A DNA stretch of 21,731 nt, from positions 1-21,731 of the IMG/VR virus record IMGVR_UViG_3300035660_000095. One strand, 5' to 3'. This DNA is from a virus. A program made the translations under genes and the position numbers. Shown here piece by piece: positions 5,156-18,419 of the stretch. Numbering within the stretch: the stretch's first letter is position 1; each line of letters starts with the position of its first letter. Under the pieces are notes generated by a model. That model saw only the letters and a program-made list of their open reading frames with translations, was not told the DNA's origin and did no database searches.

Positions 5156-5170
5156 TTATTTATACTTTAT

Positions 5171-5186
5171 ATCATATAAATATGAT
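5171..5186 (-). promoter_or_regulatory. Dyad element with ATATTTAT core upstream of the 388-aa gene
   Basis: The plus strand reads ATCATATAAATATGAT, seven-base arms around a central AA; the coding strand carries the ATATTTAT core at 5183-5176. It lies in the 47-base gap between gp6 and the next gene, 20 bases before the start codon. The same core recurs in six other minus-strand gaps. It is a candidate late-promoter element; function not shown. Confidence 0.5.
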
Positions 5187-5202
5187 TTTTCCCAAAACTA
5201 TA

Positions 5203-7080
5203 TTAATATGTAACTACTTTACCTCTAATATCTTGTTTCGGGTATTTTACTTCAAAAATAGAAGGATCCAAAGAAGGATATATAATTCCATTTCTAGTAC
5301 CTGATGTAATATCATATGAATATCTAGAATACCCAGAGGATTCACCTGATTTATTACTTATCGTTACTTTACTTACAGTTTGAACACCTTCTACTTGATC
5401 TAAAGTAGAATATATATTTGATAATATAATTGGTTGATTTATTTGCCAAGTATCGGTATCAAAATAATCTTGTAATGCTATAATACACTTACCTAGTACT
5501 TCTCTGTTAGAATAATTTGGTCTTAAAATAATTTCAAAATCTACTATAATATTAATTATATACGCATCTCTGATAGTGATTGTATCAGTCATCATACGAT
5601 ATTGTCGTAAATACGTTTTTAAATTATTTTTTAATGTAATAGAAGGTAATGTTAAATTTTGATTTAAATCATATCCTAATACATAAAGTGTTATTGAGTT
5701 AGGATCTTTTAATTCATTATTACCTTGGATAATATTACTAAAAGTGATAATGTCTTTAGTAATGTATGCTTTAGCTACCTCTCCATATTTTGCAGGCATA
5801 CTAGATGCAAAAGCTAAATAATCATTTTGTGTTACAGCTCTCATTTGTGTGGGGAACTGTGCTAAAGTATTTAAACGAATTTCTTCAATTGTATCGCCAT
5901 CCCCACCACCTGTTGCTGCTGCTAGGTTATTAACTTGTAAAGATGATTTAATAAGATTTAATGTAGTAGCATCAACTGAATTTCCTGCATATGGGGTAGC
6001 TACATATGTATTTATACTAGTTATTGTATTACTAGGAACATTTGCTTGTGCTCCACCACCTACTAAATATTGAAAAGTCAGTGTTGTGTTAGATGGTGCT
6101 AATCCATATGTATATGTAGATGTAAAATTAGTTGGATCGTATGCTGTATTTAACTTACTTAATCCATCCATTGTTCCTATACCAACTTTAGTTGGATTAG
6201 GAATTACAGATTCATCTGCATTTGTATTTACTCCGGCGCCAAATTGAATTTGTAATGTAGTTGGATTTATTACTCTTGTAACAAATCTTTTTGGTACTTT
6301 TTTAAGTTGCAATAAATAAGGTACTTGTCCGTCATTAACTGCGAATGAAGGAGAAATTCCCGGAATGTTTGCTATTGAATCAAGAATTGTATCTTGAGCA
6401 AGATATGGTACTTCATACCATTTGTTATTATCACTATCTCTTACATCTAATATTTGAATAATATTTGTATCTTGAATTTCTACAGTATTAAATTTTGTTG
6501 CATTAGTAAATGTAAATGGTGCTGTCTTAATTTCACCTGAAATAGCTTTTATATTCTTCTTTAAAAGATAATATGTTGGATCACCACTTCCGTTATATGA
6601 ATAAATTGATATGTCGGTTGGATCTGAAGAACTAGATACTGAAAAATTAACTCTATCAGCTACATAAAATAATGAATTATTTATTGTAGATTTAAGAACC
6701 ATTCCTTCAGAGATATTTAATGCATAATCCCAATTTGGAGTTTTAGCACCAGATGATCCTTGTGATGGTATTATTTGAGATATTACAATATCAACAGTCG
6801 CAGCTGAAATTACCTTAGGTTTATACCCCATCATGTATGATAAAGCGTATAAATTTTTAGATTGCTTAGCAAAAGGTAAATATGATTCTTGAATTTGATT
6901 ATCTAAATAAAAAGATAATACATCGCCCACATAAGCTGCCATATCAATAAACATTGATCCAGGAGACGCTGTTGAGAAATCATTATATGATGTAGGAAAA
7001 TATGCTTTTGCATATTCTACTAATGCTGATTTAAAATCAGTAAAGTCTTTATTAAGATATTGTATATTTTTATCAGCCAT
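5203..7080 (-). CDS. gp6: Baseplate wedge protein gp6
   Basis: 625 aa from the ATG at 7080, close to the 660 aa of T4 gp6. The N-terminal 80 residues carry the family signature: 'DFTDFKSALVEYAKAYFP', then 'SPGSMFIDMAAYVGDVLSFY', then 'YALSYMMGYKP'. The middle is beta-rich, and the C-terminal part (about 480-600) has the helical and beta segments typical of wedge/gpJ-like proteins. Gp6 forms the ring of wedge dimers that joins the baseplate periphery to the hub and changes shape on contraction. I reject the in-frame TTG start at 7089: starting at 7080 gives an 8-base overlap with the gp25 stop, in line with the other junctions here. It follows gp25, the same order as in T4. Identification is firm. 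Confidence 0.95.
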   Translation of the reverse strand: MADKNIQYLNKDFTDFKSALVEYAKAYFPTSYNDFSTASPGSMFIDMAAYVGDVLSFYLDNQIQESYLPFAKQSKNLYALSYMMGYKPKVISAATVDIVISQIIPSQGSSGAKTPNWDYALNISEGMVLKSTINNSLFYVADRVNFSVSSSSDPTDISIYSYNGSGDPTYYLLKKNIKAISGEIKTAPFTFTNATKFNTVEIQDTNIIQILDVRDSDNNKWYEVPYLAQDTILDSIANIPGISPSFAVNDGQVPYLLQLKKVPKRFVTRVINPTTLQIQFGAGVNTNADESVIPNPTKVGIGTMDGLSKLNTAYDPTNFTSTYTYGLAPSNTTLTFQYLVGGGAQANVPSNTITSINTYVATPYAGNSVDATTLNLIKSSLQVNNLAAATGGGDGDTIEEIRLNTLAQFPTQMRAVTQNDYLAFASSMPAKYGEVAKAYITKDIITFSNIIQGNNELKDPNSITLYVLGYDLNQNLTLPSITLKNNLKTYLRQYRMMTDTITIRDAYIINIIVDFEIILRPNYSNREVLGKCIIALQDYFDTDTWQINQPIILSNIYSTLDQVEGVQTVSKVTISNKSGESSGYSRYSYDITSGTRNGIIYPSLDPSIFEVKYPKQDIRGKVVTY

Positions 7081-7489
7081 TTTGTGCAAAGCTTAAAAGT
7101 ATGTCGTCTGCTTCTTGAGTATTTTTTATCGAGTAACTAAAAAAAACATACAATAAATGTGAATCTGCATCTGCTGTTATTTTTATTTTATTAATTATTA
7201 TATTGGGAAAATTCATTGCAATCCCATTTACAATAGTTTGTTTAATATCTTCTTCTGTATCACTAACTATAGGTTCAAATAATTTTGATCTTAAATTCAA
7301 TCCAAATTCAGGGTAAAATACCCTTTCGTTTTTATTTGTTAACAAATAATTAATTAGATTTATTTTTATTTGATCTTTTGATGTGTAAATACTTTTAAAA
7401 ACAGACGGATAGTTAAAAGGCATTGATACACCCAATGCTGTACTTGGCTTTAGATCTATTACATTAATATTTTTAGCTTGGTATGCCAT
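7073..7489 (-). CDS. gp25: Baseplate wedge protein gp25
   Basis: 138 aa, close to T4 gp25 (132 aa). It carries the conserved gp25/GPW core: 'NKNERVFYPEFGLNLRS', where the Glu-Arg and Pro-Glu-Phe-Gly are diagnostic, followed by 'LFEP' and then the amphipathic stretch 'DIKQTIVNGI'. Gp25 nucleates sheath assembly on the baseplate by handshake with the first sheath ring, and is conserved across contractile injection systems. Its ATG overlaps the stop of the 216-aa gene (TAATG), and its stop overlaps the start of gp6. Identification is firm. Confidence 0.95.
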   Translation of the reverse strand: MAYQAKNINVIDLKPSTALGVSMPFNYPSVFKSIYTSKDQIKINLINYLLTNKNERVFYPEFGLNLRSKLFEPIVSDTEEDIKQTIVNGIAMNFPNIIINKIKITADADSHLLYVFFSYSIKNTQEADDILLSFAQNG

Positions 7490-8139
7490 TATTTAAATGT
7501 TCTCTTTGCCATTAAAGCAGTATAATCAGGTACATTATCTATTTTAATATTTTCAAGATCAGCTTCAGGATAATAATCTGCGGCTGGAATGTTAGTCGGT
7601 AGTTTTGAAACAAGAGTTGATATTACACTTTTACCTTGTGGTGCTACTGCTTTTAATTCAGGCATTTGTTGCCCTGCAGATTCCATTTGTAGTTGAGGGG
7701 CTTCAAAGGCTGGTCTTTTCTGACCAGGTGCTGGTTTATAATCTACAGGTACCATTTGTGGGGCGCCAGGGGCTTGAGCTTCTGGTACTTCATAATCTTC
7801 GTACTCATCAGGCAACATACTATTAAATGTTTCTGCAAGCATATTCTTTAATGGGTCTTTTGAGTTGATAGGAGCTGTTAAAGGATTTACTCTATTGGTA
7901 GCAGTACCACTACTTGGATGAGAAGCGGGTTGCATTTCTACATTACGTCCTAAAGTACTCTTTTTAATTTCACCAATATAAGATGATTGAGGACCAGCTT
8001 TTTTCCTTTCATTAATCATTGCTTTTAATACAGGAGTAAGCTGCTCTTTAAGTACTTGCTTAACTATTACAGGTAATATTTCTATTAAGCATTCTTCGAT
8101 TTCTTCACGTAAAATCTGTCTAAATTGTTCTGGTTTCAT
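7489..8139 (-). CDS. Unknown 216-aa protein with amphipathic N-terminus and Pro/Gln/Ala-rich linker
   Basis: Not recognised. Residues 1-45 form a continuous amphipathic helix opening 'MKPEQFRQILREEIEECL', which has the same pattern as the start of the 438-aa protein encoded at 17628. Residues about 50-190 are low complexity and rich in Pro, Gln, Ala and Gly, suggesting a disordered linker. The C-terminal 25 residues ('ADLENIKIDNVPDYTALMAK') look like a short ordered motif. It lies directly before gp25 with a TAATG overlap, so it probably belongs to the virion or to baseplate assembly. An analogue of T4 gp53 is possible by position, but I see no sequence support. Confidence 0.75.
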   Translation of the reverse strand: MKPEQFRQILREEIEECLIEILPVIVKQVLKEQLTPVLKAMINERKKAGPQSSYIGEIKKSTLGRNVEMQPASHPSSGTATNRVNPLTAPINSKDPLKNMLAETFNSMLPDEYEDYEVPEAQAPGAPQMVPVDYKPAPGQKRPAFEAPQLQMESAGQQMPELKAVAPQGKSVISTLVSKLPTNIPAADYYPEADLENIKIDNVPDYTALMAKRTFK

Positions 8140-8140
8140 A

Positions 8141-8154
8141 TTAATAAATATTAA
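8141..8154 (-). promoter_or_regulatory. Dyad element with ATATTTAT core upstream of the 216-aa gene
   Basis: The plus strand reads TTAATAAATATTAA, six-base arms around AA; the coding-strand core is at 8151-8144. It lies in the 27-base gap after the 510-aa gene. Only four bases separate the core from the ATG, so a transcript started ten bases downstream would begin at or inside the start codon. This copy fits a promoter model least well. Confidence 0.4.
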
Positions 8155-8166
8155 ATAACTATATTA

Positions 8167-9699
8167 TTAAATAGTAGTTAATTGTAGTGCATTTACAATA
8201 TTCAATGGAATTCCATCTGTAATTGCAAAAGATAAATCAGTTATAAGTCCTTCTTTCAATAATTTTAATTTTAACTCTTCAACAAGAACTCTCTTATCCG
8301 AAGCAAAAGTTAGTTCTCCTTGTTCTACCATTATTCCTTTATTATCAAAAGCAATTGCTCTTCTTCTTTTATTTTTTATTCCTTCATCTACTAATTCTTC
8401 ATCAACTATTTTTATTACATACCCACCAAATCTAAATAAATTAGGGTCTTGTGGTACAGCTGCATAAGCATCTGTAAATCCTTTTAACTCATTGATAGTT
8501 TCTTGTAATGATTTAATTGTATTGTTAAAGTCGTTTATCAAACCACTATCATCATTACCTTGTAATACACCACATTGTTCAAGAGTGATAATTAATTTTT
8601 GCACTTCTATAATCATTTGTTGTACTTGAGAAACAATATCAGTAATGAATATTATCATTATTGAAGTTAATGTTATAATTTCTGTTAAAATTTTTCCAAG
8701 TTCAGTTTCTTTCTCTATTAAAGAATTTTTTGCTGATTCTAAACTTGATATTGCACCCAATGTTGGGCCGCCAGGCTGAAATTGACCTGGTATTGATGTT
8801 GGAAGTGGATTAGATTCAAAAATTGAAATTGCTATACTAATAGCTTGCCTTACTACAACTAATATTTTTGCAATAGTGCGAATCATATTTACAATCTTAA
8901 GTATGTTATTACATATTTGTTGAATTGTTTTTAATGAGTTTAAAAATCCTCTCAACGTTGGTAAAATTCTAGTAGGATTTATTACCTGTTGAACTTTATT
9001 AATTTGCTGTTGTAAGTTAGGAAATAAAGCAACAATACTTTGTGCACTTTGTAAAGATGAAACAGCTACTAATATACTATATAATTTATTGATGGTTGAA
9101 AACACATCATTTAGTTGTCCAGAAGGTAATTGAGTAATATTTGCATTAGTATTTAAAAATATCAATATATCATTAACAGTTTTTGTAGCGTCTTCACCAC
9201 CTGGTATGGTAGCTATAAAACTTAATACTTCAGGTGTTAAATTTTGGTTTAAAATATCTCTAATTTCTAAAAAATTTCTTTTAATCTGATCCTTTTGATC
9301 TAATTGTTTTTCTGTATCAAATACTTTACCTTGGGATGGATTTAATAAATTACTAGAAGTATAAAGTTTATTTATTGTTCCACTTAAATTAAAAGCAGTT
9401 GTTTTTATTTTATTAATGTTGTTGCTTAATTTACCGGACGGTTTTAATTTACTTAATGAAAGCTGTCCTAAAGTGTAATTTATAATATTACATACATCAA
9501 CATCATTAAGTAATTCTAGTATTCCAATCATACCAATATACTTAACTGATTTTGTATTTGATAATGTTTTATCGCCAGATAATATTTTATTTACAGCGGT
9601 ATTTAAAGTTACTATTTTTTTAGAAAACCCAAGTATGGCTTTTTCACTTCCAGTTGCAGAAGTCCCATCTGATAATACTGAGCCGAATGATAGTGTCAT
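8167..9699 (-). CDS. Unknown 510-aa helical protein of the baseplate hub operon
   Basis: Not recognised by family. It is almost entirely helical and rich in Ile, Leu, Asn, Ser and Gln. Two strongly hydrophobic stretches stand out: residues about 262-296 ('NILKIVNMIRTIAKILVVVR' and following) and about 335-375 ('IITLTSIMIIFITDIVSQVQ' and following). Between them is a Pro/Gly-rich break near 298-315. The last 90 residues become mixed and charged, with 'FRFGGYVIKIVDEELVDEG' and a Lys/Arg patch. It starts three bases after the stop of the gp5-like gene, so the two are co-translated. It may be a hub, tail-tip or tape-like protein, or one that inserts into a membrane during injection. Confidence 0.75.
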   Translation of the reverse strand: MTLSFGSVLSDGTSATGSEKAILGFSKKIVTLNTAVNKILSGDKTLSNTKSVKYIGMIGILELLNDVDVCNIINYTLGQLSLSKLKPSGKLSNNINKIKTTAFNLSGTINKLYTSSNLLNPSQGKVFDTEKQLDQKDQIKRNFLEIRDILNQNLTPEVLSFIATIPGGEDATKTVNDILIFLNTNANITQLPSGQLNDVFSTINKLYSILVAVSSLQSAQSIVALFPNLQQQINKVQQVINPTRILPTLRGFLNSLKTIQQICNNILKIVNMIRTIAKILVVVRQAISIAISIFESNPLPTSIPGQFQPGGPTLGAISSLESAKNSLIEKETELGKILTEIITLTSIMIIFITDIVSQVQQMIIEVQKLIITLEQCGVLQGNDDSGLINDFNNTIKSLQETINELKGFTDAYAAVPQDPNLFRFGGYVIKIVDEELVDEGIKNKRRRAIAFDNKGIMVEQGELTFASDKRVLVEELKLKLLKEGLITDLSFAITDGIPLNIVNALQLTTI

Positions 9700-9702
9700 A
9701 TA

Positions 9703-10971
9703 TTATACAGAATAAATTTTTTGAGATTTAATATCTTCAAGTGAATTGGAAGTAGCGATACATACATCTGATAACTTCTTTCCAGAAGATACCATTAAAG
9801 GAATTGCTGATTCAGGCGTAGTTGACATACCTGATACAGCACTTGCAAAACTATTAAGAGCATCTATTAATGGAGATAAAGTCTTTATAAGATTATCGCT
9901 TAATACTATTTTTTGTCCTTTAGTTAATGCTCCAGCTCCAAGTTCTACTGCATCAATGCCATCTATTGATACCGTTTCTCCTGCATCTATATGCACACTT
10001 TTTTTACTAGATAATGATATTCCTTTTTTTCCATAAAATAATACAAAATCTTTTCTTGCATTAAAAATAATTCTATCAGAACAAATAATAGCTTGATTTT
10101 CATGATATTCTTTATCTGGAGCTTCTTCTGATATAAAAGGTGTCCCAGGGGTGTTATATGATGATAACGGATATCTACTTTTTTTAATATCACCTACGGA
10201 GATATTTTGATCACTTGTTAAATAAATTGACGTACCGTCTGTATCTATATCTTCAAGAGAATGAGCAAAACCGCTTACTCTTTTACGATTATTTGTAAAT
10301 ATAGTGATGGGTGATCCATTTTTCTTACCTGAACCTGGCCATAAAGATCCTCCTTTAGTAGAAAATTTATCATTATTTATTAATATAGTTTGACCAAATC
10401 GAATTGATTGTCCCCACCTACCTTCAAATATTACATCACCAGCAAATGGTTGTAAAGGATTAAGATTTGATTGTTCTACAAATGGTTGGGTACCACCGAA
10501 GTTAAAATTACCAGGTTCAGTATTTGGTCCTTGACTAGAAATTTCAGAGGCGGTAGGTGTTTGATTTACTTGATCATTATAGTCTTTCTTATCTGGAAAT
10601 GCATTATGATTTATTTCATTCCAAATATTAAATGGAGGTAAGTAATATACTTGAGTTGCAGAATCATCATCATTTAAATGACGGCTTGGACCTAAAATTA
10701 AAAATACACATTCTCCTATTACAGGATATACTTTAATATTATTACCAGCGCAACTAGCTTTAGGATTATAAGTTACGTTTTTTGTTTTTCTTATTTTATA
10801 TAAGAGTTGATAAAAAATCTTTCCAATATCTTCAGGGCCTTCGCATTGAGGATGAGATGGATCTAATATAATATCTGTAACCCTAGCTATACCAATTATA
10901 GGATCTACCTTACTAAGATTTTCAGGATCATTATATTTACTTCTATCCGTTGTTGGATTAAAATTGTTCAT
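9703..10971 (-). CDS. gp5: gp5-like baseplate hub/spike protein without a lysozyme domain
   Basis: 422 aa. Residues about 22-115 look like the gp5 N-terminal OB fold ('VDPIIGIARVTDIILDPSHP' through 'YPVIGECVFLILGP'). Residues 178-193 hold 'GDVIFEGRWGQSIRFG', a motif seen in gp5-type hub proteins of T4-like phages. Residues about 290-345 are short beta repeats ('IIFNARKDFVLFYGKKGISL') of the kind that form the gp5/VgrG spike, followed by a helical tail. T4 gp5 (575 aa) has a lysozyme domain between the OB fold and the spike. Here that interval is only a Pro/Asn/Gln-rich linker (about 130-178), so no cell-wall-cutting domain is visible. The ATG overlaps the stop of the upstream 114-aa gene (TAATG). 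Confidence 0.82.
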   Translation of the reverse strand: MNNFNPTTDRSKYNDPENLSKVDPIIGIARVTDIILDPSHPQCEGPEDIGKIFYQLLYKIRKTKNVTYNPKASCAGNNIKVYPVIGECVFLILGPSRHLNDDDSATQVYYLPPFNIWNEINHNAFPDKKDYNDQVNQTPTASEISSQGPNTEPGNFNFGGTQPFVEQSNLNPLQPFAGDVIFEGRWGQSIRFGQTILINNDKFSTKGGSLWPGSGKKNGSPITIFTNNRKRVSGFAHSLEDIDTDGTSIYLTSDQNISVGDIKKSRYPLSSYNTPGTPFISEEAPDKEYHENQAIICSDRIIFNARKDFVLFYGKKGISLSSKKSVHIDAGETVSIDGIDAVELGAGALTKGQKIVLSDNLIKTLSPLIDALNSFASAVSGMSTTPESAIPLMVSSGKKLSDVCIATSNSLEDIKSQKIYSV

Positions 10972-11315
10972 TAAACTATTGTTCCTTTACCTATTGTTTG
11001 AACCGCACTATATAATCCTTGTAATTCTTTATCACTTAATTTGAAATCATCTTCACTATTTGCAGCAGAAGCAGCCATGGCACGTTGAACAATACCTGCC
11101 ATCTTTATTAATGATTCATCATTCTTTACCGCTACTTCAAGATATTCTTTTAAGAGAGGCACAAGTAGGGTTGCTTCACTTGGATCTGTAATCATATCTT
11201 TTAACTGTATAACACAGTCTTTTATGATTTTTTCCTTTGAAACTTGGTTTTTATATATGTCTTCAAGTAAAGAAGAAAACGACTTTCCTTTGAAAATTAC
11301 AGTATCTAGATTCAT
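10971..11315 (-). CDS. Unknown 114-aa helical protein, first gene of the hub operon
   Basis: Not recognised. It is predominantly helical, opening 'MNLDTVIFKGKSFSSLLEDI', with an Ala/Ser-rich centre ('MAASAANSEDDFKLSDKELQ'). It has no membrane segment and no Cys. It is the first gene of the baseplate cluster, preceded by a 41-base gap with a copy of the ATATTTAT element, and its stop overlaps the ATG of the gp5-like gene. Operon position suggests a hub assembly factor or small structural subunit. Confidence 0.72.
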   Translation of the reverse strand: MNLDTVIFKGKSFSSLLEDIYKNQVSKEKIIKDCVIQLKDMITDPSEATLLVPLLKEYLEVAVKNDESLIKMAGIVQRAMAASAANSEDDFKLSDKELQGLYSAVQTIGKGTIV

Positions 11316-11327
11316 ATTCTTTTGAAT

Positions 11328-11335
11328 ATAAATAT
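11328..11335 (-). promoter_or_regulatory. ATATTTAT element ahead of the baseplate operon
   Basis: The core lies 12 bases before the ATG of the 114-aa gene, in the 41-base gap after the sigma factor gene. It is preceded on the coding strand by AAAGGATTC; the copy at 17883-17876 is preceded by TTAGGATTC. Outer arms CATATTC and GAATATA around TTTT can form a small hairpin (11313-11330). It is a candidate late promoter for the hub genes. Confidence 0.5.
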
Positions 11336-11356
11336 GAATCCTTTAGAAAAGAGTGA

Positions 11357-12103
11357 CTATACTCCTACTTCTAATTTTTTATTCAAAATTTTCTTATAAA
11401 TTACTTTTAATTTTTTGATAATTAAAGTAATTAGTGGGGTGGGTACATCCGCCATTTCATGAACATAGATGTATAAAGCTTTCTTAGATAGAATATCTAA
11501 TGTGTTTCTTTTACGAAAAATTTCTAGAATTGATTCCGCAATCTTTCTTTCTTTAGGTTTTGGAAAAAGAAGTTCAATATTTGTCTCTACATATTCAATA
11601 AATTCATTTATTGACGATGTTTGAATTTCTGAGAAGTTTGGTTCAGCAAAGGAATTACTAAGTGATTGAGTAATAGTTTTATCTACATCTATCTCATCTA
11701 CTCCTGCTTTCTCTTTTAGCTTTTTATAATTCTTTTTATTATAAACAATCAAATACCTCTTTATGATTGTTCCAAAATATGAATAAGCTTTACCGTGAGT
11801 TTGTTTGTACCTATGTAATTTTTCAAGCATTACTGTTACAAGTTCATGCTTTAATTCTTCTAAAGAATTAACCTCTGTATAATAAAATTTAAAGGTATGA
11901 ATTATATTTTCAGATAACTTATAAAACGCATAATTAATTTTTTCATTAAATATTTTATTACGTTTTATAGGATCTGTAGTAATTAAATACTCAACTATAG
12001 CATCTTCAGTCTCCTGAGTGAAGTACATAATTGGTTGTTTAGGTTTTCTTTTCCTAATTTCACCAGTTTTAGTATATAGTTCACTATTGTTTTTATCTTC
12101 CAT
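11357..12103 (-). CDS. gp55: gp55-like late-transcription sigma factor
   Basis: 248 aa from the ATG at 12103; in-frame ATG at 12109 and TTG at 12112 are alternatives. The region from about residue 35 to 120 has sigma-70 region-2 character: 'KINYAFYKLSENIIHTFKFY', then 'LEELKHELVTVMLEKLHRYK', then 'KAYSYFGTIIKRYLIVYNKK', the last matching the aromatic and basic helix that contacts the -10 element. A C-terminal helical part follows with basic residues near the end. No region 4 is evident, as in T4 gp55 (185 aa), which needs the sliding clamp and gp33 to activate late promoters. The start overlaps the stop of the 102-aa gene by 11 bases. The role inferred is to direct host RNA polymerase to late promoters, possibly the ATATTTAT elements. 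Confidence 0.82.
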   Translation of the reverse strand: MEDKNNSELYTKTGEIRKRKPKQPIMYFTQETEDAIVEYLITTDPIKRNKIFNEKINYAFYKLSENIIHTFKFYYTEVNSLEELKHELVTVMLEKLHRYKQTHGKAYSYFGTIIKRYLIVYNKKNYKKLKEKAGVDEIDVDKTITQSLSNSFAEPNFSEIQTSSINEFIEYVETNIELLFPKPKERKIAESILEIFRKRNTLDILSKKALYIYVHEMADVPTPLITLIIKKLKVIYKKILNKKLEVGV

Positions 12104-12401
12104 TAACATCAACGTTATAAGAGTCTAGAGCTTTTTGGATATTTTTCAGGTTAGTGAAAAATCCGCCAATCTCGTCGTCACTCTTAAACGCCTTGCTGAC
12201 TTCTGCTTCTTCTATAATTTGATGCGATTCTTGAATTAAAGAAGATAAATTCGCAATGAAAGTATCTCTTTGATTAATTAATACATCTCTTTCTTCAACA
12301 ATTTTTTCTAATTTTTTAGTTTTTTGAAGTAGATTATTAATTATAAATCCAAATATTGTAACCGGCCATAATATACATGCTATAATTCCAAATATTTCCA
12401 T
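12093..12401 (-). CDS. Membrane-anchored coiled-coil protein, 102 aa
   Basis: Residues 3-25 ('IFGIIACILWPVTIFGFIIN') form one strong N-terminal membrane segment with no cleavage site. A long coiled coil follows ('LLQKTKKLEKIVEERDVLIN' and on), so most of the protein should lie on one side of the membrane. The organisation resembles i-spanins and small phage membrane proteins, but spanins usually sit beside the endolysin, and here the neighbours are an HD hydrolase and the sigma factor. The ATG lies one base after the HD-gene stop, and its 3' end overlaps the sigma start. Function unknown. Confidence 0.75.
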   Translation of the reverse strand: MEIFGIIACILWPVTIFGFIINNLLQKTKKLEKIVEERDVLINQRDTFIANLSSLIQESHQIIEEAEVSKAFKSDDEIGGFFTNLKNIQKALDSYNVDVNGR

Positions 12402-12402
12402 T

Positions 12403-13179
12403 TTATAAATTTTTAAGTAAATCCATCATTGCGGGAGTAGCTTTAATTGATTTTAAAGCTCCTGTACGAGCTTGGGAAGGCTTTTTATTTTCAAATTGAG
12501 GTTTATTCACTTTGTTATTAGTAACAATTGCTGGCCATTGTCTTTCCCATTCAACTCTAGCAGCCATTAAATCTGCTTGATGAAGAACTAATGGTAGATA
12601 TGTTCTAAGTCTTGATTCTAATTGATACCCAATAAGGTAAGCTTTATTACCTTCTTCATATAAACCATCATGCAACTTAATTGCTAAAAATTCATTTTGA
12701 GAAACTTCAATTCCTTTAGATTGTAATATGAATAATGTTCTGTCTGGAACAGTAAAGAAAGGAAGTTCAGTGTTATACTTATAAAACTTACTTAATTTTT
12801 GAACCTCCCAATCATTATCATTTATGTCACATCCATGAACCTCTGGCGTGCCTAACTTACCTAAATCGTGATTAAGTGCGGCAAATACCATTTCTTCATC
12901 TGTAAAATTTTTATGAGCACCAATGCTTAGCCAAATTTTATTTAGTTGAATACATCCATGAACAACACGAATAATATGATCAACATATCCTCCTGGAAAA
13001 CAATTATGATTATTATTGTTAATTGCGGCGGGAGCCATAATCATATGTTCCTGCATTTCATTATAAAGGGATATCAATTTTTCTCTTCTGGGTGATGGTA
13101 TATAATCTTCAATCACCTGTATAAATTGATTCCAATTATCTTGGAGTTGTTCTGGAGTGAACGTAACTGCGAATTTCAT
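12403..13179 (-). CDS. HD-domain metal-dependent phosphohydrolase
   Basis: 258 aa. The HD superfamily residues are visible in order: His68 in 'GGYVDHIIRVV', His104-Asp105 in 'FAALNHDLGKLG', His170-Asp171 in 'AIKLHDGLYEEG', and a late Asp203 in 'LVLHQADLMAARVEWE'. This is a complete metal-binding set, so the enzyme is probably active. HD proteins cleave phosphate esters and often act on nucleotides, including signalling nucleotides; the substrate cannot be read from sequence. It is in an operon with a glutaredoxin-like gene and the late sigma, so nucleotide metabolism or control of a host nucleotide signal is plausible. The C-terminal 35 residues are basic and probably disordered. Confidence 0.85.
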   Translation of the reverse strand: MKFAVTFTPEQLQDNWNQFIQVIEDYIPSPRREKLISLYNEMQEHMIMAPAAINNNNHNCFPGGYVDHIIRVVHGCIQLNKIWLSIGAHKNFTDEEMVFAALNHDLGKLGTPEVHGCDINDNDWEVQKLSKFYKYNTELPFFTVPDRTLFILQSKGIEVSQNEFLAIKLHDGLYEEGNKAYLIGYQLESRLRTYLPLVLHQADLMAARVEWERQWPAIVTNNKVNKPQFENKKPSQARTGALKSIKATPAMMDLLKNL

Positions 13180-13180
13180 A

Positions 13181-13375
13181 TTAGAATGTTTCTGGTTCTC
13201 TGTCTACTAAAGAGTGTACAAATTCAAGTCTTTCTTTAATCACTTCGATGGGACCATAAAGAAGACTTTGTCTAATTGTTGTGTCTTCCATTGTGGGTCC
13301 GATACTTCTTTCTAAAGAGTGAACTAAGTTTGTTAGTTGTTCTAAAGTTTGTAATGCTACGTCTCTATTTCTCAT
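13181..13375 (-). CDS. Unknown 64-aa helical protein
   Basis: Not recognised. It is two likely helices separated by a short loop: 'VALQTLEQLTNLVHSLERSI' and 'PIEVIKERLEFVHSLVD'. It has no Cys and no membrane segment. The start overlaps the 3' end of the glutaredoxin-like gene by 11 bases, and its stop is one base before the ATG of the HD hydrolase. This tight coupling on both sides supports a real gene. Confidence 0.65.
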   Translation of the reverse strand: MRNRDVALQTLEQLTNLVHSLERSIGPTMEDTTIRQSLLYGPIEVIKERLEFVHSLVDREPETF

Positions 13376-13676
13376 AAAATTGGTTTATTATATTGTTAAT
13401 ACTTTCTATTGTTGTCCAATGGAAAAATAAATTATTTCCTATTGGTTGTAATTTTTTACATAAAATTGGTACTATGTATACGATATTTTCTTTTGTTTCT
13501 ATTACTATTTTAGGATAATGATTACATTCAAATATTTTGTCAAGATCTTTAGCTATTTTGGCATTATGGCTATCTCTTGGGTTCTCATATATGACCGGAA
13601 TATTTTTTTTTTGCAAATCTTCTTTTAATTCTTTACAAGTTTGACATTCTGGTAATACAAATGCTCTTATTATCAT
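13365..13676 (-). CDS. Glutaredoxin/thioredoxin-like protein
   Basis: 103 aa. The N-terminus reads as a beta strand followed by the redox motif Cys11-Gln-Thr-Cys14 ('VLPECQTCKELKEDL'), then a helix. A Tyr54-Pro55 ('NHYPKIVIE') fits the cis-proline position of the thioredoxin fold. T4-like phages carry such proteins (nrdC) as electron donors for ribonucleotide reductase. No reductase lies in the window, so the partner is unknown. It heads a run of overlapping genes leading to the HD hydrolase and sigma factor, 52 bases downstream of an ATATTTAT element. Confidence 0.8.
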   Translation of the reverse strand: MIIRAFVLPECQTCKELKEDLQKKNIPVIYENPRDSHNAKIAKDLDKIFECNHYPKIVIETKENIVYIVPILCKKLQPIGNNLFFHWTTIESINNIINQFYEK

Positions 13677-13725
13677 TTAATATACATTATTCTATTTAAT
13701 AATCCTACTCCTACTATTATTATAC

Positions 13726-13739
13726 TATATAAATATATA
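13726..13739 (-). promoter_or_regulatory. Dyad element with ATATTTAT core upstream of the glutaredoxin-to-sigma operon
   Basis: The plus strand reads TATATAAATATATA, six-base arms around AA; the coding-strand core is at 13736-13729, 52 bases before the ATG at 13676. It is the only candidate start signal for the five-gene run ending in the sigma gene. Confidence 0.45.
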
Positions 13740-13742
13740 ATA

Positions 13743-13774
13743 TATTAGCTAGAAGCTTATGCAAAAAGCTAATA
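13743..13774 (-). other. Hairpin with competing inner hairpin upstream of the glutaredoxin-like gene
   Basis: TATTAGCT (13743-13750) and AGCTAATA (13767-13774) are perfect eight-base inverted arms around a 16-base loop. Inside, AGCTT and AAGCT can pair in a different hairpin that excludes the first. It lies between the 116-aa gene stop and the ATATTTAT element. There is no T-run after it on the minus strand, so it is not a simple terminator. Role unknown. Confidence 0.4.
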
Positions 13775-13790
13775 CTTTCGACTCATATTA

Positions 13791-14141
13791 TCAACTCTTT
13801 CCGGAAGTATTTTTTTCTTCAATGTTTTTTAACTGAGATTCCAAGATTTCATTAATTTTTTTAACATTAATACAAAGCTCGTACATCTCTGCATCTTGAA
13901 ATAGTTTAAGAAGTGTTTTATGAAAAATAATCATTGTGTTAAGCTGTTCAGCACTAACATCTTTAACATATTTAAAATTATTATCCTTATCTGTGTCAAG
14001 TACTTGAGATATTGTACTAACATAATCAGTTATAATTTTAAACAACTGATCGTATAATTTATCAGGTAAAAGATTAGCTGGTATCAAACTAAAATCTGAA
14101 TTTATAGAGGTGTATAACCTATGTATTTCTTCATTATCCAT
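13791..14141 (-). CDS. Unknown 116-aa helical protein
   Basis: Not recognised. It is all-helical with acidic and Lys-rich ends: 'LPDKLYDQLFKIITDYVSTI', then 'AEQLNTMIIFHKTLLKLFQD', then 'NVKKINEILESQLKNIEE'. It has one Cys and no membrane segment. It is the first minus-strand gene left of the divergent regulatory region. Its ATG is only eight bases after the T-run of an intrinsic terminator, so its expression may be set by read-through. Confidence 0.7.
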   Translation of the reverse strand: MDNEEIHRLYTSINSDFSLIPANLLPDKLYDQLFKIITDYVSTISQVLDTDKDNNFKYVKDVSAEQLNTMIIFHKTLLKLFQDAEMYELCINVKKINEILESQLKNIEEKNTSGKS

Positions 14142-14149
14142 AAACTATT

Positions 14150-14185
14150 AAAAAAAATCGGGACCAGGTACTCCTACCTAGCCCC
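14150..14185 (-). terminator. Intrinsic terminator or attenuator just before the 116-aa gene
   Basis: On the minus strand an 11-pair stem (arms 14185-14175 and 14170-14160, two G-T pairs) closes a GGAG loop. It is followed by GA and eight T's (14157-14150). It is a textbook Rho-independent terminator in minus direction. It lies after the ATATTTAT element at 14219-14212 and eight bases before the ATG at 14141. It could also stop antisense transcripts coming from the 15-16 kb genes. Confidence 0.78.
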
Positions 14186-14204
14186 TTTATTTAACCTACT
14201 AACC

Positions 14205-14223
14205 AACGATAATAAATATCGTT
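14205..14223 (-). promoter_or_regulatory. Dyad element with ATATTTAT core, minus orientation
   Basis: The plus strand reads AACGATAATAAATATCGTT: seven-base perfect arms around ATAAA, the strongest stem of the set because it contains C-G pairs. The coding-strand core is at 14219-14212. About 27 bases further along the minus strand the terminator hairpin begins. It is a candidate start for a short leader RNA and the 116-aa gene. Confidence 0.5.
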
Positions 14224-14264
14224 AAAAATTATCAAATATAAAACTTTTTTAATCGAGTAATTAA

Positions 14265-14272
14265 ATATTTAT
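14265..14272 (+). promoter_or_regulatory. ATATTTAT element in plus orientation upstream of the endolysin
   Basis: This is the only intergenic copy that reads ATATTTAT on the plus strand, and it lies upstream of the only plus-strand gene, 112 bases before the ATG at 14385. The switch in orientation with gene direction is the best argument that the element is directional. If active, it gives a leader of about 100 bases holding the hairpin at 14309-14322. Confidence 0.5.
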
Positions 14273-14308
14273 TATTGAAGCAGTCATTTATTCAAGGCTT
14301 TAAAGTTA

Positions 14309-14322
14309 GTCGGCATTCCGAC
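14309..14322. other. Small GC hairpin in the endolysin leader
   Basis: GTCGG (14309-14313), loop CATT, CCGAC (14318-14322): a perfect five-base stem that stands out in very AT-rich sequence. There is no following T-run on either strand, so it is not a terminator. It may be a leader RNA structure. Confidence 0.35.
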
Positions 14323-14329
14323 GTATAAA

Positions 14330-14348
14330 TTTTGTAAAGCTTTTGTAA
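14330..14348 (+). repeat. Direct repeat TTTTGTAA spaced by three bases
   Basis: TTTTGTAA occurs at 14330-14337 and again at 14341-14348, an 11-base period or about one helical turn, 36 bases before the endolysin start. The spacing suits a dimeric DNA-binding protein. Chance occurrence in AT-rich DNA is possible. Confidence 0.3.
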
Positions 14349-14384
14349 TACATTATTACCGATTAAATGCTGCTTTTTTATATT

Positions 14385-15008
14385 ATGGATTTTAAAAAAC
14401 TATCAACAATCGTTCCCACTTCGGTATTTATACCCTTAGTAGAAACATGCACTAAATTTCAAATTAATACTGAATTAAGAGTTGCTCACTTCTTAGCACA
14501 AATTGCTCATGAAAGCGATAACTTTAAGTACTCAGTAGAAAATTTAAATTATTCTGCAGACAGATTATTACAAATATTTCCTAAATATTTCCCTGATAAA
14601 ACATTAGCAGAACAATATGCTAGAAAGCCAATATTAATTGCATCAAAAACTTATGCAAATAGATTAGGTAATGGTAACGAAGCCTCCCAAGAAGGGTACA
14701 AATTCAGAGGTAGAGGGTATGTACAAATAACAGGTAAAGATAATTACGTTAAATTTGGTACATTTATAAATGAAGATATAGTTGCAAATCCAGATTTAGT
14801 TGCAACTCCAAAATATGCAATGTTATCAGCAGGTTGGTTTTTCTTTGTAAATAAAATACATCTTGTTGCAGATAAAGGAGCAACAGAACAAGTAATAAGA
14901 GAAGTAACTAAAAAAGTAAATGGTGGATATAATGGAATTGATGATCGAATCAAAAGATTCAATTATTATAACAACATCATTACAGCTGAAAAGCCTATAG
15001 TTCTCTAA
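14385..15008 (+). CDS. GH19 (chitinase-like) endolysin
   Basis: 207 aa from the ATG at 14385; an in-frame ATG at 14367 would add six hydrophobic residues and is less likely. The glycoside hydrolase 19 pattern is clear: 'FLAQIAHESDNF' with the first catalytic Glu at residue 43, the second candidate Glu52 in 'VENLNYSADRLL', then 'YANRLGNGNEASQEGYKFRGRG'-type substrate-groove sequence (residues 90-111), 'YVQITGKDNY', and a C-terminal 'KVNGGYNGIDDR'. Phage GH19 enzymes cleave the glycan backbone of peptidoglycan at lysis. There is no signal peptide or wall-binding domain, so export should need a holin. It is the only plus-strand gene; its stop overlaps the stop of the convergent 66-aa gene. Confidence 0.93.
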   Translation: MDFKKLSTIVPTSVFIPLVETCTKFQINTELRVAHFLAQIAHESDNFKYSVENLNYSADRLLQIFPKYFPDKTLAEQYARKPILIASKTYANRLGNGNEASQEGYKFRGRGYVQITGKDNYVKFGTFINEDIVANPDLVATPKYAMLSAGWFFFVNKIHLVADKGATEQVIREVTKKVNGGYNGIDDRIKRFNYYNNIITAEKPIVL

Positions 15009-15205
15009 TTCATATCACTATCAATCTTTTCAATATCACGATTTAGATATCGTTGTATGTAAGGGACTACACTTCTATACCACACCTTAATAAAAAATTT
15101 TCCATTTTCTTTACGATGTGCAATACTGCCACTAAAATGAGACGTAAGATATCGGTATTCTTCTTCAGATACTTCGATTGGAGTATCGTATTTTACTTCC
15201 TTCAT
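15005..15205 (-). CDS. Unknown 66-aa protein
   Basis: Not recognised. It is a small mixed protein with an aromatic, basic centre ('HRKENGKFFIKVWYRSVVPY') and an acidic N-terminus. It starts in an ATGA overlap with the phosphoesterase stop, and its stop overlaps the end of the convergent endolysin gene. The coupling supports a real gene; no function can be inferred. Confidence 0.65.
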   Translation of the reverse strand: MKEVKYDTPIEVSEEEYRYLTSHFSGSIAHRKENGKFFIKVWYRSVVPYIQRYLNRDIEKIDSDMN

Positions 15206-15948
15206 TTATAAAAATCAGGCAGTATGTACTTCTTTTCAGGAGGTTTAGGTAATTGTTCAATTTGAAATTTACCGTCAATACAAACAAGATATTGTCTATT
15301 CTGCAAACAATCTATCATATAAAACCCTCTTCTTTCACTTTTTGCTGGAGAGTCGATCTTGTTCACTTGAGTATGACCAACCACTTGTAATTCAGAAATA
15401 GAATCTTTATACAAACTTGGCTGTCTTACCCAGATACATGATTGGTGAATATCATCCCCACAGTGAGAATGATCAAAAGGATAAAATCCAAACGTTAGAG
15501 GCTTATATTTCCAAATATCATTTATGTATTTGTCATCAAATGGAATTCTAGTACCGGCTTTCTTTTCGAGAAACGTTTCTGTAAAGCCAGCATGACTATA
15601 AACAGTGTTATATTCATCTTTAAAACACATTTGAAGCAGTTTTTTATTCTGATCCAAAGCATATTCAAAAGTTGATCTCATATGAGGCTGGTAACTAGTA
15701 TAACTCTCTTCGACACCAGGCCAGTAGTGATAGTCGTGATTACCGATTAGTAAGATTACTTTATCAGGATTGTCTTTTTTGAACTGACAAATATCAGCAA
15801 AGTTATTTAACTGTTGTTCACCAGTGATATCGTGATGAGTATCCAAATAATCACCTATAAAAATAACTCTATCAAAGTCTTTTTCTTTGTTGAGAATATC
15901 TTTCCACACGGTTCTACCGTGAATATCACCTATAATAACTTGCTTCAT
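15202..15948 (-). CDS. Calcineurin-like metallophosphoesterase
   Basis: 248 aa. All signature motifs of the family are present in order: 'GDIHG' (Asp8, His10), 'GDYLD' (Asp33), 'GNHD' (Asn70-His71), 'SHAGF' (His119) and 'GHTQ' (His192). This complete two-metal site resembles phage protein phosphatases (lambda type) and also bacterial nucleotide or nucleic-acid phosphatases. The protein or nucleotide target cannot be decided from sequence. The start is one base after the stop of the 44-aa membrane gene, and it overlaps the following 66-aa gene. The gene is somewhat richer in G+C than its neighbours, which may reflect conservation or transfer. Confidence 0.92.
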   Translation of the reverse strand: MKQVIIGDIHGRTVWKDILNKEKDFDRVIFIGDYLDTHHDITGEQQLNNFADICQFKKDNPDKVILLIGNHDYHYWPGVEESYTSYQPHMRSTFEYALDQNKKLLQMCFKDEYNTVYSHAGFTETFLEKKAGTRIPFDDKYINDIWKYKPLTFGFYPFDHSHCGDDIHQSCIWVRQPSLYKDSISELQVVGHTQVNKIDSPAKSERRGFYMIDCLQNRQYLVCIDGKFQIEQLPKPPEKKYILPDFYK

Positions 15949-15949
15949 A

Positions 15950-16084
15950 TCACCAAATAGGATGCTTAACTAAATATGGTATAAATACAAAGAATACCAC
16001 AAGTGCTAAAGCAAGCAATGGAATGAATAAAATAGGAAACACTGCTGCCAGTAACAAAAGGGCAGCGATTGTAAACTTTTTCAT
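15950..16084 (-). CDS. Very small membrane protein, 44 aa (candidate holin/antiholin)
   Basis: This short frame starts at the ATG at 16084, in an ATGA overlap with the stop of the 61-aa gene. It ends in TGA at 15952-15950, one base before the phosphoesterase ATG. It encodes a basic start ('MKKFTIAALLLLAAVFPILF') followed by an almost continuous hydrophobic run ('IPLLALALVVFFVFIPYLVK') and a short polar end. It would give one long or two short membrane segments with a Pro-induced break. The coupling on both sides makes it a convincing gene despite its length. Size, charge and location close to the endolysin suit a small holin or antiholin, but sequence alone cannot prove this. Confidence 0.65.
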   Translation of the reverse strand: MKKFTIAALLLLAAVFPILFIPLLALALVVFFVFIPYLVKHPIW

Positions 16085-16266
16085 ATATTTTTTGATTGTG
16101 ATTGCTCTTTACCTAAAATTTCGGCACCTTTCAATATAAAATGAAAGAATGCCCATATACCATATATTATGTTTACCCACATAGGTAAACTAAAACTTAA
16201 AAAAATCCCTAATGCAATCAAATGTTGTATTAAGAATACTGCGAAGTTTGGTGTTTTTAAAAGCAT
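16081..16266 (-). CDS. Small two-segment membrane protein, 61 aa (candidate holin)
   Basis: It has two hydrophobic segments, 'NFAVFLIQHLIALGIFLSFS' and 'WVNIIYGIWAFFHFILKGA', joined by a short Pro-Met turn. The C-terminal tail is charged and polar ('ILGKEQSQSKNI'). This is the topology of class II holins. It overlaps the 44-aa membrane gene by an ATGA, giving a tandem pair of tiny membrane proteins about 1 kb from the endolysin. The ATG at 16266 follows a 45-base gap after the 438-aa gene, with no Shine-Dalgarno sequence and no ATATTTAT element. Confidence 0.7.
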   Translation of the reverse strand: MLLKTPNFAVFLIQHLIALGIFLSFSLPMWVNIIYGIWAFFHFILKGAEILGKEQSQSKNI

Positions 16267-16311
16267 ACATAAAGATAAAACAAATTTCTCAATAAAACAA
16301 CCATTATTTTA

Positions 16312-17628
16312 TTATACGTACCCTGGAATTGCTTTAAGAACCCTAGACATTATCTTAATAATCCAATGTTGATCTACTGGGGATAAAGATTTTACTGATC
16401 CGATTGCGGCTCCCATCATTGATGAAACAAGAGCAAGACTATCTGCTCCAAGATCACCTAATTTAATTGACTCTAAAGTTCCTTCCGCTCCATGCACCCC
16501 ATGTTCACTAAATGATTTTATAATAACAATCATAAAAAAAGCAATATAAATACCATCTGCTATTTTTTCTCTTATATGTGGATCTTTTAGATGAGAATCT
16601 TTCTTAAAGAAAGCAATCATTTTTAAAATTGCAGTTATTGGTAATAATAATTTTTCATGGAATTTTTTTGATTTATTATTTATCCATTTAGCAAAAGGAC
16701 TAAAAAATTCTCTTTCATGAGGTTTATGTCCTCCTCCATGAACTGGTTTGTTATCTGGTCCTAAAGTATCTTCTTTATCATCTTTTTTATTTAAACCAAG
16801 ATTTCTATTTTGCATTTTGTCAATATCTTTGTAAGTGATATCACCACGCAATACTCCTATTTGTCTTTTAAGATATTCCATCATACTAGCAACCGCTTGA
16901 CCAACGTGCGGTAACATTAGAACAACTAAAAATGCAACAAAGCCTTCTTCACCTGTTATTTCATTTACTTTACCTTTTATCTGTTCTCCCTTTTCACTAG
17001 CATTTTTAATATCACCCATTATTGCTTTTGGGTCACCAAATTGAGATAATGCTTGTGTTAATTCTTGTGAGGACGGCTCACTATTATTTTGTTCTATTTC
17101 TCCTTCTTGTATTGGATTGTCCTGTCTTAAGTAATTTTTAACAATTGTCTGTGGTTTGTATTTACCAGCTTTAGTACTTCTAAATTTTTCATTCCATTTA
17201 TTAACAGCTGCTATTAAATGATCAACTCTTTGTTGAGGTGAAATACTAGTATTGTCTATTTTCTTTAAAAAAGCATAAATGTCTTTTCCAGATGGAGTAT
17301 CATCAGTTACAGATATTTCATCGACTTGTGAAGGATTGTTATTACTAACTAAACTAACATCTGGTGTTTTAGTTGTCTTTCCAAAATCAGGATCTCTTGT
17401 TATTGCAGCAACAACTTCGTTTGGTAATTGAACTAAATCTCTATTAACAAAACTATCTGCTCTTGCAGGATCTTTTACGTACTTTAAAAGTAAATTTAAC
17501 TTGTCATTATCAGCCATTGACATCCATTGACTGTCTAGCTTATCTCTCATGTTATCAGGAACAGATCTTTCTTTAATAAAGTCAGTAGCTGTTTCTTTTA
17601 TGATTTGTTTTAATTCAGATTTTTTCAT
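16312..17628 (-). CDS. Unknown 438-aa protein with several hydrophobic segments
   Basis: Not recognised. The start at 17628 forms an ATGA overlap with the upstream stop, and I prefer it to the in-frame GTG at 17634. The N-terminus 'MKKSELKQIIKETATDFI' is an amphipathic helix with the same pattern as the 216-aa protein. Residues 20-225 are soluble and polar. Hydrophobic stretches follow at about 229-250, 326-341, 357-373 and 394-412, separated by a charged, His-rich part ('HGGGHKPHEREFF', about 297-309). The layout, a targeting-like helix, soluble half and membrane-active half, could suit a virion protein ejected into the host envelope, but that is speculation. Confidence 0.75.
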   Translation of the reverse strand: MKKSELKQIIKETATDFIKERSVPDNMRDKLDSQWMSMADNDKLNLLLKYVKDPARADSFVNRDLVQLPNEVVAAITRDPDFGKTTKTPDVSLVSNNNPSQVDEISVTDDTPSGKDIYAFLKKIDNTSISPQQRVDHLIAAVNKWNEKFRSTKAGKYKPQTIVKNYLRQDNPIQEGEIEQNNSEPSSQELTQALSQFGDPKAIMGDIKNASEKGEQIKGKVNEITGEEGFVAFLVVLMLPHVGQAVASMMEYLKRQIGVLRGDITYKDIDKMQNRNLGLNKKDDKEDTLGPDNKPVHGGGHKPHEREFFSPFAKWINNKSKKFHEKLLLPITAILKMIAFFKKDSHLKDPHIREKIADGIYIAFFMIVIIKSFSEHGVHGAEGTLESIKLGDLGADSLALVSSMMGAAIGSVKSLSPVDQHWIIKIMSRVLKAIPGYV

Positions 17629-17861
17629 TTCCACCCTTTAATTTTTTCTATCCACAACCTTTTAATTTCATTTCTAGCTTGGTCACGTAAGATATGATCT
17701 TCAGGAATTTCTTTACGTAATAAATTCTCAACATCATATATGGTATAGTCAATGGTAATTTCCATACCCATTCCAGAGATATCAGTATCATCATAGTCTT
17801 CGAAATCAAAGTTTTTTTGATGAAAAACAGAAATTTCTAATAAATCGGCGATTTTATACAC
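17625..17861 (-). CDS. Unknown 78-aa acidic protein, GTG start
   Basis: Not recognised. It opens with GTG at 17861; the next ATG is 30 codons in and would remove most of the fold. It is strongly acidic in the first half ('FDFEDYDDTDISGMGMEI') and basic at the C-terminus ('RNEIKRLWIEKIKGWK'). The stop overlaps the start of the 438-aa gene by ATGA. A dyad ATATTTAT element lies 14 bases upstream. Confidence 0.6.
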   Translation of the reverse strand: MYKIADLLEISVFHQKNFDFEDYDDTDISGMGMEITIDYTIYDVENLLRKEIPEDHILRDQARNEIKRLWIEKIKGWK

Positions 17862-17886
17862 GTAATATCTTTGTTATAAATATTAC
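17862..17886 (-). promoter_or_regulatory. Dyad element with ATATTTAT core upstream of the 78-aa gene
   Basis: Arms GTAATAT (17862-17868) and ATATTAC (17880-17886) flank an 11-base loop; the coding-strand core is at 17883-17876. The preceding GGATTC resembles the copy at 11335-11328. It lies in the 40-base gap after the 77-aa gene. Confidence 0.5.
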
Positions 17887-17901
17887 GAATCCTAAAGAAA
17901 T

Positions 17902-18135
17902 TTATTGCTTCCCTCTGGAAGCTGTACGAATAGGTCTTATTAGTTGGTCAATAATAATTTGCATAGCCGGTAATGGTAAAAAAGTATTTACATCATACCA
18001 ATTACTGTTAGGTACAAGTGGTAAATTCTTAACTATATCTGGATGATCATCTTCAGAATATCGAATTTTATCAGCAATGTTTTGTCTAATTATATTTATC
18101 ACCCTTTGCATATCTTTTTTAACTCTTTTACGCAT
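17902..18135 (-). CDS. Unknown 77-aa protein
   Basis: Not recognised. It has a basic N-terminus ('MRKRVKKDMQRVINIIRQNI') and a Pro/Leu-rich C-terminal half ('WYDVNTFLPLPAMQIIIDQL') ending in basic residues. From the ATG at 18135 it overlaps the zinc-ribbon gene by 37 bases; an in-frame ATG at 18111 would give a 13-base overlap, closer to the other junctions here, so the start is uncertain. Confidence 0.6.
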   Translation of the reverse strand: MRKRVKKDMQRVINIIRQNIADKIRYSEDDHPDIVKNLPLVPNSNWYDVNTFLPLPAMQIIIDQLIRPIRTASRGKQ

Positions 18136-18311
18136 TTAGGACAGTAACAATAATCATTTACTGATTTCCATCCTCTTTTAACAAATTGAGAATGACAATC
18201 TTGTTCATCCCAACCCATTACAAAATCATCTTCATTACATCTTGAACAAGTTAACTCTGCTGAAGTTTCTGCATAAACGCATTCTTCTTGTAAATCATTC
18301 CACTTTTCCAT
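18099..18311 (-). CDS. Zinc-ribbon protein, 70 aa
   Basis: Two CxxC knuckles are visible: Cys22-Ser-Arg-Cys25 and Cys57-Pro-Lys-Cys60 ('YCYCPKCVKELK'), separated by 31 residues that include 'FVKRGWKS'. This is the layout of small phage zinc ribbons that bind nucleic acid or act as adaptor proteins. It has six or seven Cys in 70 residues, far more than its neighbours. It follows a terminator and a dyad ATATTTAT element and begins a transcription unit running to the 438-aa gene. The specific function is unknown. Confidence 0.78.
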   Translation of the reverse strand: MEKWNDLQEECVYAETSAELTCSRCNEDDFVMGWDEQDCHSQFVKRGWKSVNDYCYCPKCVKELKKICKG

Positions 18312-18335
18312 AGTTGTTTTATTTTAAAGGACCAT

Positions 18336-18349
18336 ACTATAAATATAGT
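18336..18349 (-). promoter_or_regulatory. Dyad element with ATATTTAT core upstream of the zinc-ribbon gene
   Basis: The plus strand reads ACTATAAATATAGT, six-base arms around AA; the coding-strand core is at 18346-18339, 27 bases before the ATG at 18311. It lies just downstream of the HTH-gene terminator, a terminator-then-promoter order that fits a transcription restart. A TTTG lies 20 bases upstream of TATATTTA, close to the Bacteroidota TTTG...TAnnTTTG spacing. Confidence 0.55.
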
Positions 18350-18368
18350 TAAAAAACTCATGTAAAAC

Positions 18369-18397
18369 AAAAAAAGGCTATCCTTTCGGACAGCCTT
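18369..18397 (-). terminator. Strong Rho-independent terminator of the HTH gene
   Basis: On the minus strand, ten-pair arms (18397-18388 and 18383-18374, one G-T pair) close a GAAA tetraloop and run into seven T's (18375-18369). It begins 22 bases after the stop of the HTH gene and should insulate it from the zinc-ribbon operon. Confidence 0.9.
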
Positions 18398-18419
18398 GGT
18401 ACATAACCTTTAGAGAAGA

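Follow-up and report, generated by a model that had tools for sequence, protein, structure and literature searches.

The virus record IMGVR_UViG_3300035660_000095, analysed here over its 21.7 kb (21,731 nucleotides, the window), encodes on its minus strand a gp25-like baseplate wedge protein (7073..7489; Pfam GPW_gp25, PHROGs) and a gp6-like one (5203..7089; PHROG 219), both indicating a late gene context. The minus strand also encodes, at 11357..12112, a putative divergent sigma-2-type (gp55-like) factor with an extra C-terminal helical domain. The gaps between the genes carry a short oriented element with the consensus N-TATTTAT-A/T, in the window form ATATTTATA, followed about 3 bases downstream by a run of A, which is considered below as a candidate late promoter with the sigma-like protein as its candidate reader. 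Among annotated phages, those most closely related are Flavobacterium phage immuto, Microcystis phage Mel-JY01 and the 484-kb phage LR756508, with 40–48% identity for gp6 and 35–48% for the sigma-like protein, and relatives of gp6 or of the sigma are encoded in about 135 IMG/VR loci. Group statistics were obtained from 77 non-redundant related loci (1.16 Mb) using simple gene calls based on open reading frames (ORFs).

Placement and orientation in the window

The window gene map was built from the ORF list and defines nine gaps that are 25 bases or longer, located at 5156-5202, 8140-8166, 11316-11356, 13677-13790, 14142-14366, 16267-16311, 17862-17901, 18312-18419 and 18612-18790. Seven of the nine hold ATATTTAT (846 intergenic bases), in each case pointing the same way as the gene that follows. 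The eight intergenic copies listed in the preliminary description, seven on the minus and one on the plus strand, were all found at their positions, and the single coding copy it had noted is that at 18092-18099 (plus strand). When the gaps were shuffled 2000 times with dinucleotide composition preserved, minus-strand copies averaged 0.48 and never exceeded 3, against 7 observed (P<1/2000). The total number of ATATTTAT in the whole window is ordinary (9 found, 8.4 expected), and the signal therefore lies in placement and orientation.

The minus-strand copy at 8144..8151 (ATATTTATT) is 4 nucleotides (nt) ahead of the ATG of gene 7489-8139, the gene just 5' of gp25, and that at 11328..11335 (ATATTTATA, minus strand) precedes gene 10971-11315, the first gene past the sigma gene. 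Before gene 3989-5155 the element (5176..5183, minus strand, ATATTTATA) is kept in 14 of 63 orthologues, while none of the 6 detectable orthologues keeps the one before gene 13365-13676 (13729..13736, minus strand, ATATTTATA), and none of 14 the plus-strand copy (14265..14272, ATATTTATT) before the chitinase-like gene 14367-15008 (Pfam Glyco_hydro_19). The remaining three minus-strand copies, at 14212..14219 (ATATTTATT), 17876..17883 (ATATTTATA) and 18339..18346 (ATATTTATA), stand before genes 13791-14141, 17625-17861 (GTG start) and 18099-18311, respectively, for which no orthologues were found.

Two of these sites lie close to inverted repeats. In the gap 18312-18419, a GC-rich inverted repeat and, after it, a T run (GGCTGTCCGAAAGGATAGCCTTTTTTT, minus strand) are located just upstream of the 18346 element, so that the order is terminator then promoter. 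Another GC-rich inverted repeat, with T-rich sequence after it (GGGGCTAGGTAGGAGTACCTGGTCCCGATTTTTTTT, minus strand, 14142-14200), separates the 14212 element from gene 13791-14141 and would fall within the leader of a transcript started at that element.

The element across the phage group

A second-order Markov model supplied the expectation for ranking every 7-mer and 8-mer found upstream of genes, and TATTTAT, together with ATATTTAT and TATTTATA, had the top z-scores in the 77 loci. ATATTTAT occurs upstream of genes 195 times in the sense orientation, against 18.8 expected, and 24 times in the antisense orientation (binomial 2e-34, the sites not being independent). Its density there is 52-fold that in coding sequence, which is the intergenic enrichment in related phages that the preliminary description had proposed to look for. 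The element is found upstream of 35 gene families and the antisense word before 32 genes of 20 families; the families are uneven in size (65, 45, 20, 15 and so on), so that copy counts exaggerate independence. The distance from the core to the ATG is mostly 4–24 nt and never below 4, with a range extending beyond 100 nt. The element thus belongs to the phage group and not to the window alone.

Comparison of orthologous genes gave a sharper footprint. An oriented box lies within 60 bases upstream in 60 of 62 orthologues of gene 10971-11315, and is absent or nearly so before nearby genes, namely the sigma gene (0/58), gene 9703 (0/61), gp25 (0/69) and gp6 (1/68); taken together, 60/62 against 1/256 for the four nearby genes gives a Fisher value of 3e-61. 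In 65 of 67 loci, the window included, the gene 5' of gp25 is preceded by the box, which in 63 of them ends 4–6 nt ahead of the ATG. In the box-anchored alignment the invariance of TATTTAT follows from the construction of the search, though AAA at +11 to +13, which was not a search criterion, is present in 90–98% of the anchored sites. Most flanking columns reach only 35–65%, and the spacing to the ATG varies between 5 and 24 nt. There is no conserved −35 block, only an A-rich stretch 15–35 bases upstream of the box. As judged from sequence comparison, these data show that the core upstream of the baseplate operon is maintained by selection.

The association with virion genes is apparent in the annotated relatives; both immuto and Mel-JY01 belong to the T4-like group that bears the element. 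The complete immuto genome (NC_055915.1) has exact copies before the terminase, portal, sheath, tube, hub and tape measure genes and before a tail spike and structural genes, and almost none before replication genes; some hypothetical genes likewise carry the element. With virion blocks delimited by us from the annotation, 19 of 61 genes inside the blocks are preceded by the element, compared with 10 of 171 elsewhere (P 2e-6). Mel-JY01 (PP395634.1) has 18 sense copies and 1 antisense copy, and copies are positioned 30–45 nt before the ATGs of the tail-tube gene and of the gene after the terminase, which is in the portal position.

Other repeated words were seen upstream of genes in the same two genomes. 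Parts of the word ATATTTAGGTATCAATAATT have 9–18 intergenic copies in immuto, with a sense bias, and this word may represent an operator or a promoter of the early or middle class. The words CTTGCATACGT and CAACCTAACAG are repeated upstream in Mel-JY01 and are also sense-biased.

In LR756508 (484 kb, of which 30–180 kb was examined), no enrichment of TATTTATA was detected despite the presence of a distant sigma relative, and having a related sigma therefore does not always go together with having the motif. The same 30–180 kb of LR756508.1 show a weak enrichment of the word CTATTTA (7 copies against 1.4 expected), and the box may have shifted again in this phage.

Relation to T4 late promoters and the candidate reader

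The T4 late promoter, TATAAATA, is read by gp55, and its box, which spans −13 to −6 (PMC1524935), and spacing are documented (PMC1524935, PMC2988020). The preliminary description rightly held that the element is not the plain T4 motif, while what it called nearly the complement is in fact an exact reverse complement: TATTTATA, contained in full in five window copies, is the reverse complement of TATAAATA or, equally, TAT-AA-ATA with TT in place of the AA at its centre. The two signals share an AT-only box of 8 bp with the outer TAT and ATA, an AT-rich segment downstream, the lack of a −35 element, a position upstream of virion genes and, probably, a phage-encoded factor of the sigma-2 type. 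They differ in the central TT of the group box, where T4 has AA, and in the distance from box to ATG, which is as short as 4 nt in the group and at least 14 in the stretch of T4 that was counted. The T4 box in its usual orientation was rejected as the group signal, as upstream regions of the group contain 200 TATTTATA and 36 TATAAATA, the latter mostly the antisense reading; the T4 control count gave 10 TATAAATA and 6 TATTTATA. A single sense copy of TATAAATA occurs in the window gaps, at 5164-5157, immediately before an ATG.

Published accounts of late promoters in T4-like phages place them at or near TATAAATA; among the descriptions found, the exception is Aeromonas phage Aeh1, with the variant late promoter CTAAATA and a diverged gp55 (PMC1524935). 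The group resembles Aeh1 in that the late box of a T4-like phage has shifted and its gp55 has, in the group probably, diverged; Aeh1, though, alters −13/−12, whereas the group box alters −10/−9 and keeps the A at −12. No paper on TATTTATA as a phage late promoter was found in the open-licence literature, where the matches were to the T4 template strand or came from unrelated papers on eukaryotic viruses, and a search for phage immuto by name found nothing relevant.

The preliminary description had placed a gp55-like sigma in the window, and of this the divergent sigma-2 protein is supported, whereas the similarity to gp55 proper is weak. The product of 11357-12112 has no Pfam match, and 13 of 43 homologues match PHROG 234, 'late sigma transcription factor', with a best E value of 4.6e-4. 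Its AlphaFold model (predicted local distance difference test, pLDDT, 78; predicted template modelling score, pTM, 0.44) retrieved mostly sigma factors with Foldseek, none at E <0.001 in PDB. In T4, gp55 flips the bases −12, −9 and −8, with Y97 stacked on the A at −12, H95 at −9 and T99 at −8 (PMC7892883). A sigma-2 fold segment is probably common to the window protein and T4 gp55 (PDB 7d7c), and Y97 aligns with Y111, which is invariant in 43 homologues. In the hhalign register H95 is replaced by Y/F109 and T99 by G113 in 41 of 43 homologues, and the window sigma has about 110 further residues forming the C-terminal helical domain, seen in the model at residues 161–248, which may or may not be sigma-4-like. 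When the box is set in the T4 register, A is kept at −12 and −8 and is changed to T at −10 and −9; that the changed box matches the changed sigma pocket is suggestive only.

Dyads, alternatives and proposed mechanism

Dyads around the element are to be expected because the core is self-complementary except for TT. The earlier statement that structure is kept as well as core holds for the window and its nearest clade and fails in the remainder of the group. Summed stems at the window sites amount to 58, against 43 after shuffling (0/3000 shuffles), and the clade whose sigma is most like that of the window also has a stem excess (0/300 shuffles). In the rest of the group neither excess stem length (P 0.89) nor covariation of flank and partner was detected (96 and 122 unique sites), and on these flank-shuffle and covariation tests dyads were ruled out as a general feature and retained for the window's clade.

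The excess in the clade arises mainly from one site, before gene 10971, where the region of the start codon is paired with the 5' arm of the box. In the window this is a perfect 10-bp hairpin at 11309..11340 (minus strand; GATTCATATT / AATATGAATC), the 5' arm of which overlaps the promoter core while the 3' arm holds the ATG of 10971-11315. A predicted hairpin with a stem of 8–10 bp precedes this gene family in the window and in 10 clade relatives, with arms that differ and yet are complementary (GATTCATATT/AATATGAATC, TCCATATT/AATATGGA, TCCATATTT/AAATATGGA, CATATTTA/TAAATATG), and stems become shorter on average when the 3' segments are swapped among phages (P 0.006, or 0.026 if the window is left out). 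An 8-bp hairpin at 17861..17887 (minus strand; CGTAATAT / ATATTACG) extends as far as the initial G of GTG, the start codon of 17625-17861. The predicted probability that the ATG of 10971-11315 is unpaired is 0.00 in a read-through RNA and 0.83 in an RNA started at the element. Start-occluding RNA structures are known from the T4 genes e, soc, 49 and I-TevI, with the late promoters of gene e in the 5' strand (PMC3014915). As in the gene e leader, the box would be in the 5' strand and the start codon in the 3' strand, and late RNA would escape; unlike it, the window hairpin is predicted, concerns a baseplate-operon gene and is confined to one clade. The clade dyads are probably a translation gate and not part of promoter recognition.

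Three other explanations of the element were weighed. A hairpin for RNA processing or stability, with the dyads as the feature and the core incidental, would account for the strong hairpins of the window and its clade; since outside that clade the core is kept with no excess of hairpins, and a stem-loop would not require the strict orientation observed for this near-palindromic core, it deserves hardly any credence. Slightly less improbable, and still very unlikely, is a translation-initiation element, that is a conserved leader word aiding ribosomes of hosts without Shine-Dalgarno sites. Proximity to the ATG and the sharp 4–6 nt spacing before one gene family would suit it, whereas most genes have no box, including the internal operon genes gp25, gp6 and 9703, the spacing ranges from 4 to more than 100 nt, and the Mel-JY01 copies at 30–45 nt have GGAG-like sequence in between.

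The third explanation, in which the host housekeeping sigma, in place of the phage one, reads the element as a late or general promoter, is unlikely, if somewhat less so than the other two. Housekeeping promoters of Bacteroidota have the consensus TTTG ... TAnnTTTG (−33/−7). The AT-rich, −10-like box at a short distance from the gene would be compatible with such a reader, and TATATTTA at some sites resembles TAnnTTTG minus the G. TAnnTTTG itself, however, lies upstream of only 17 genes, compared with 198 for the element, and the host-type promoter was rejected on account of this rarity; no upstream block is conserved, Mel-JY01, a phage recorded from a cyanobacterium, has this box as well, and the virion-gene bias together with the absence before the sigma gene suits a late-specific reader.

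Enrichment and orientation in the group, the footprint at the baseplate genes and the concentration at virion genes lend the late-promoter proposal of the preliminary description strong support at the sequence level. Indeed, N-TATTTAT-A/T very probably acts as a −10-like late-promoter element for the diverged gp55/sigma-2-type factor encoded alongside it. Several observations weigh against this assignment. In the window, four of the eight sites are without orthologous support. In immuto, several virion genes, gp23 among them, have no exact copy, while GroES and PhoH carry an ATATTTATT. As regards the reader, a sequence search of PDB with the sigma profile gave no match, hhalign to a nine-member gp55 alignment was weak (E 0.0009–0.0024, probability 12–24%), and the Foldseek match to gp55 (7d7c_F) had a target TM (template modelling score) of 0.53 and an E value of 1.7. 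The T4-type sliding clamp (PF02916) was not found in immuto, Mel-JY01 and two long relatives in a search that matched the T4 control and could miss diverged clamps; PF09116 had no match anywhere, the control included, and is uninformative. The clamp-coupled activation of T4, by the gp45 sliding clamp and gp33, may thus not apply here, and the group signal is classed as one that would act in the manner of a T4 late promoter while departing from the T4 consensus, with clamp coupling doubtful. Last, the spacing of 4–5 nt before the gene 5' of gp25 leaves no T4-register start upstream of the ATG; starts in that register would fall inside the ATG, so that a start in the A-run is simpler.

For the late promoter proposed here, host RNA polymerase with the phage gp55-like sigma (11357-12112) would open the DNA at the box without a −35 element, and RNA would start in the A-run 4–6 bases past the box. 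Leaders would then be very short, and some transcripts may have none, for instance that of the gene just 5' of gp25. In the window's clade, at 10971-11315 and possibly at 17625-17861, the box would be part of the 5' arm and the start codon part of the 3' arm of a hairpin. The sigma gene lies directly upstream of 10971-11315 and has no box ahead of it, and read-through by earlier transcripts is therefore plausible; read-through RNA from the sigma operon would conceal the start codon of 10971-11315, and only late-promoter RNA, which is without the 5' arm, would be translated.

A more complete scheme can be put forward tentatively, and is rather doubtful as a whole, in which both parts have been re-specified: a sigma with a rebuilt −9/−8 pocket and an extra C-terminal domain would read the reverse complement of the T4 box with no T4-type clamp and start 4–6 bases past it, giving some leaderless virion mRNAs and, in one clade, the hairpin. 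The element provides a usable late-gene signal for a phage group known mostly from metagenome contigs, the changed box and changed sigma form a matched pair for testing how phage sigma specificity evolves, and the isolate immuto makes the element directly testable.

Apart from the element, a hydrophobic minus-strand ORF of about 38 aa, below the ORF size cut-off, was noticed at 15955-16071 of the window, where it occupies most of the gap 15949-16080.

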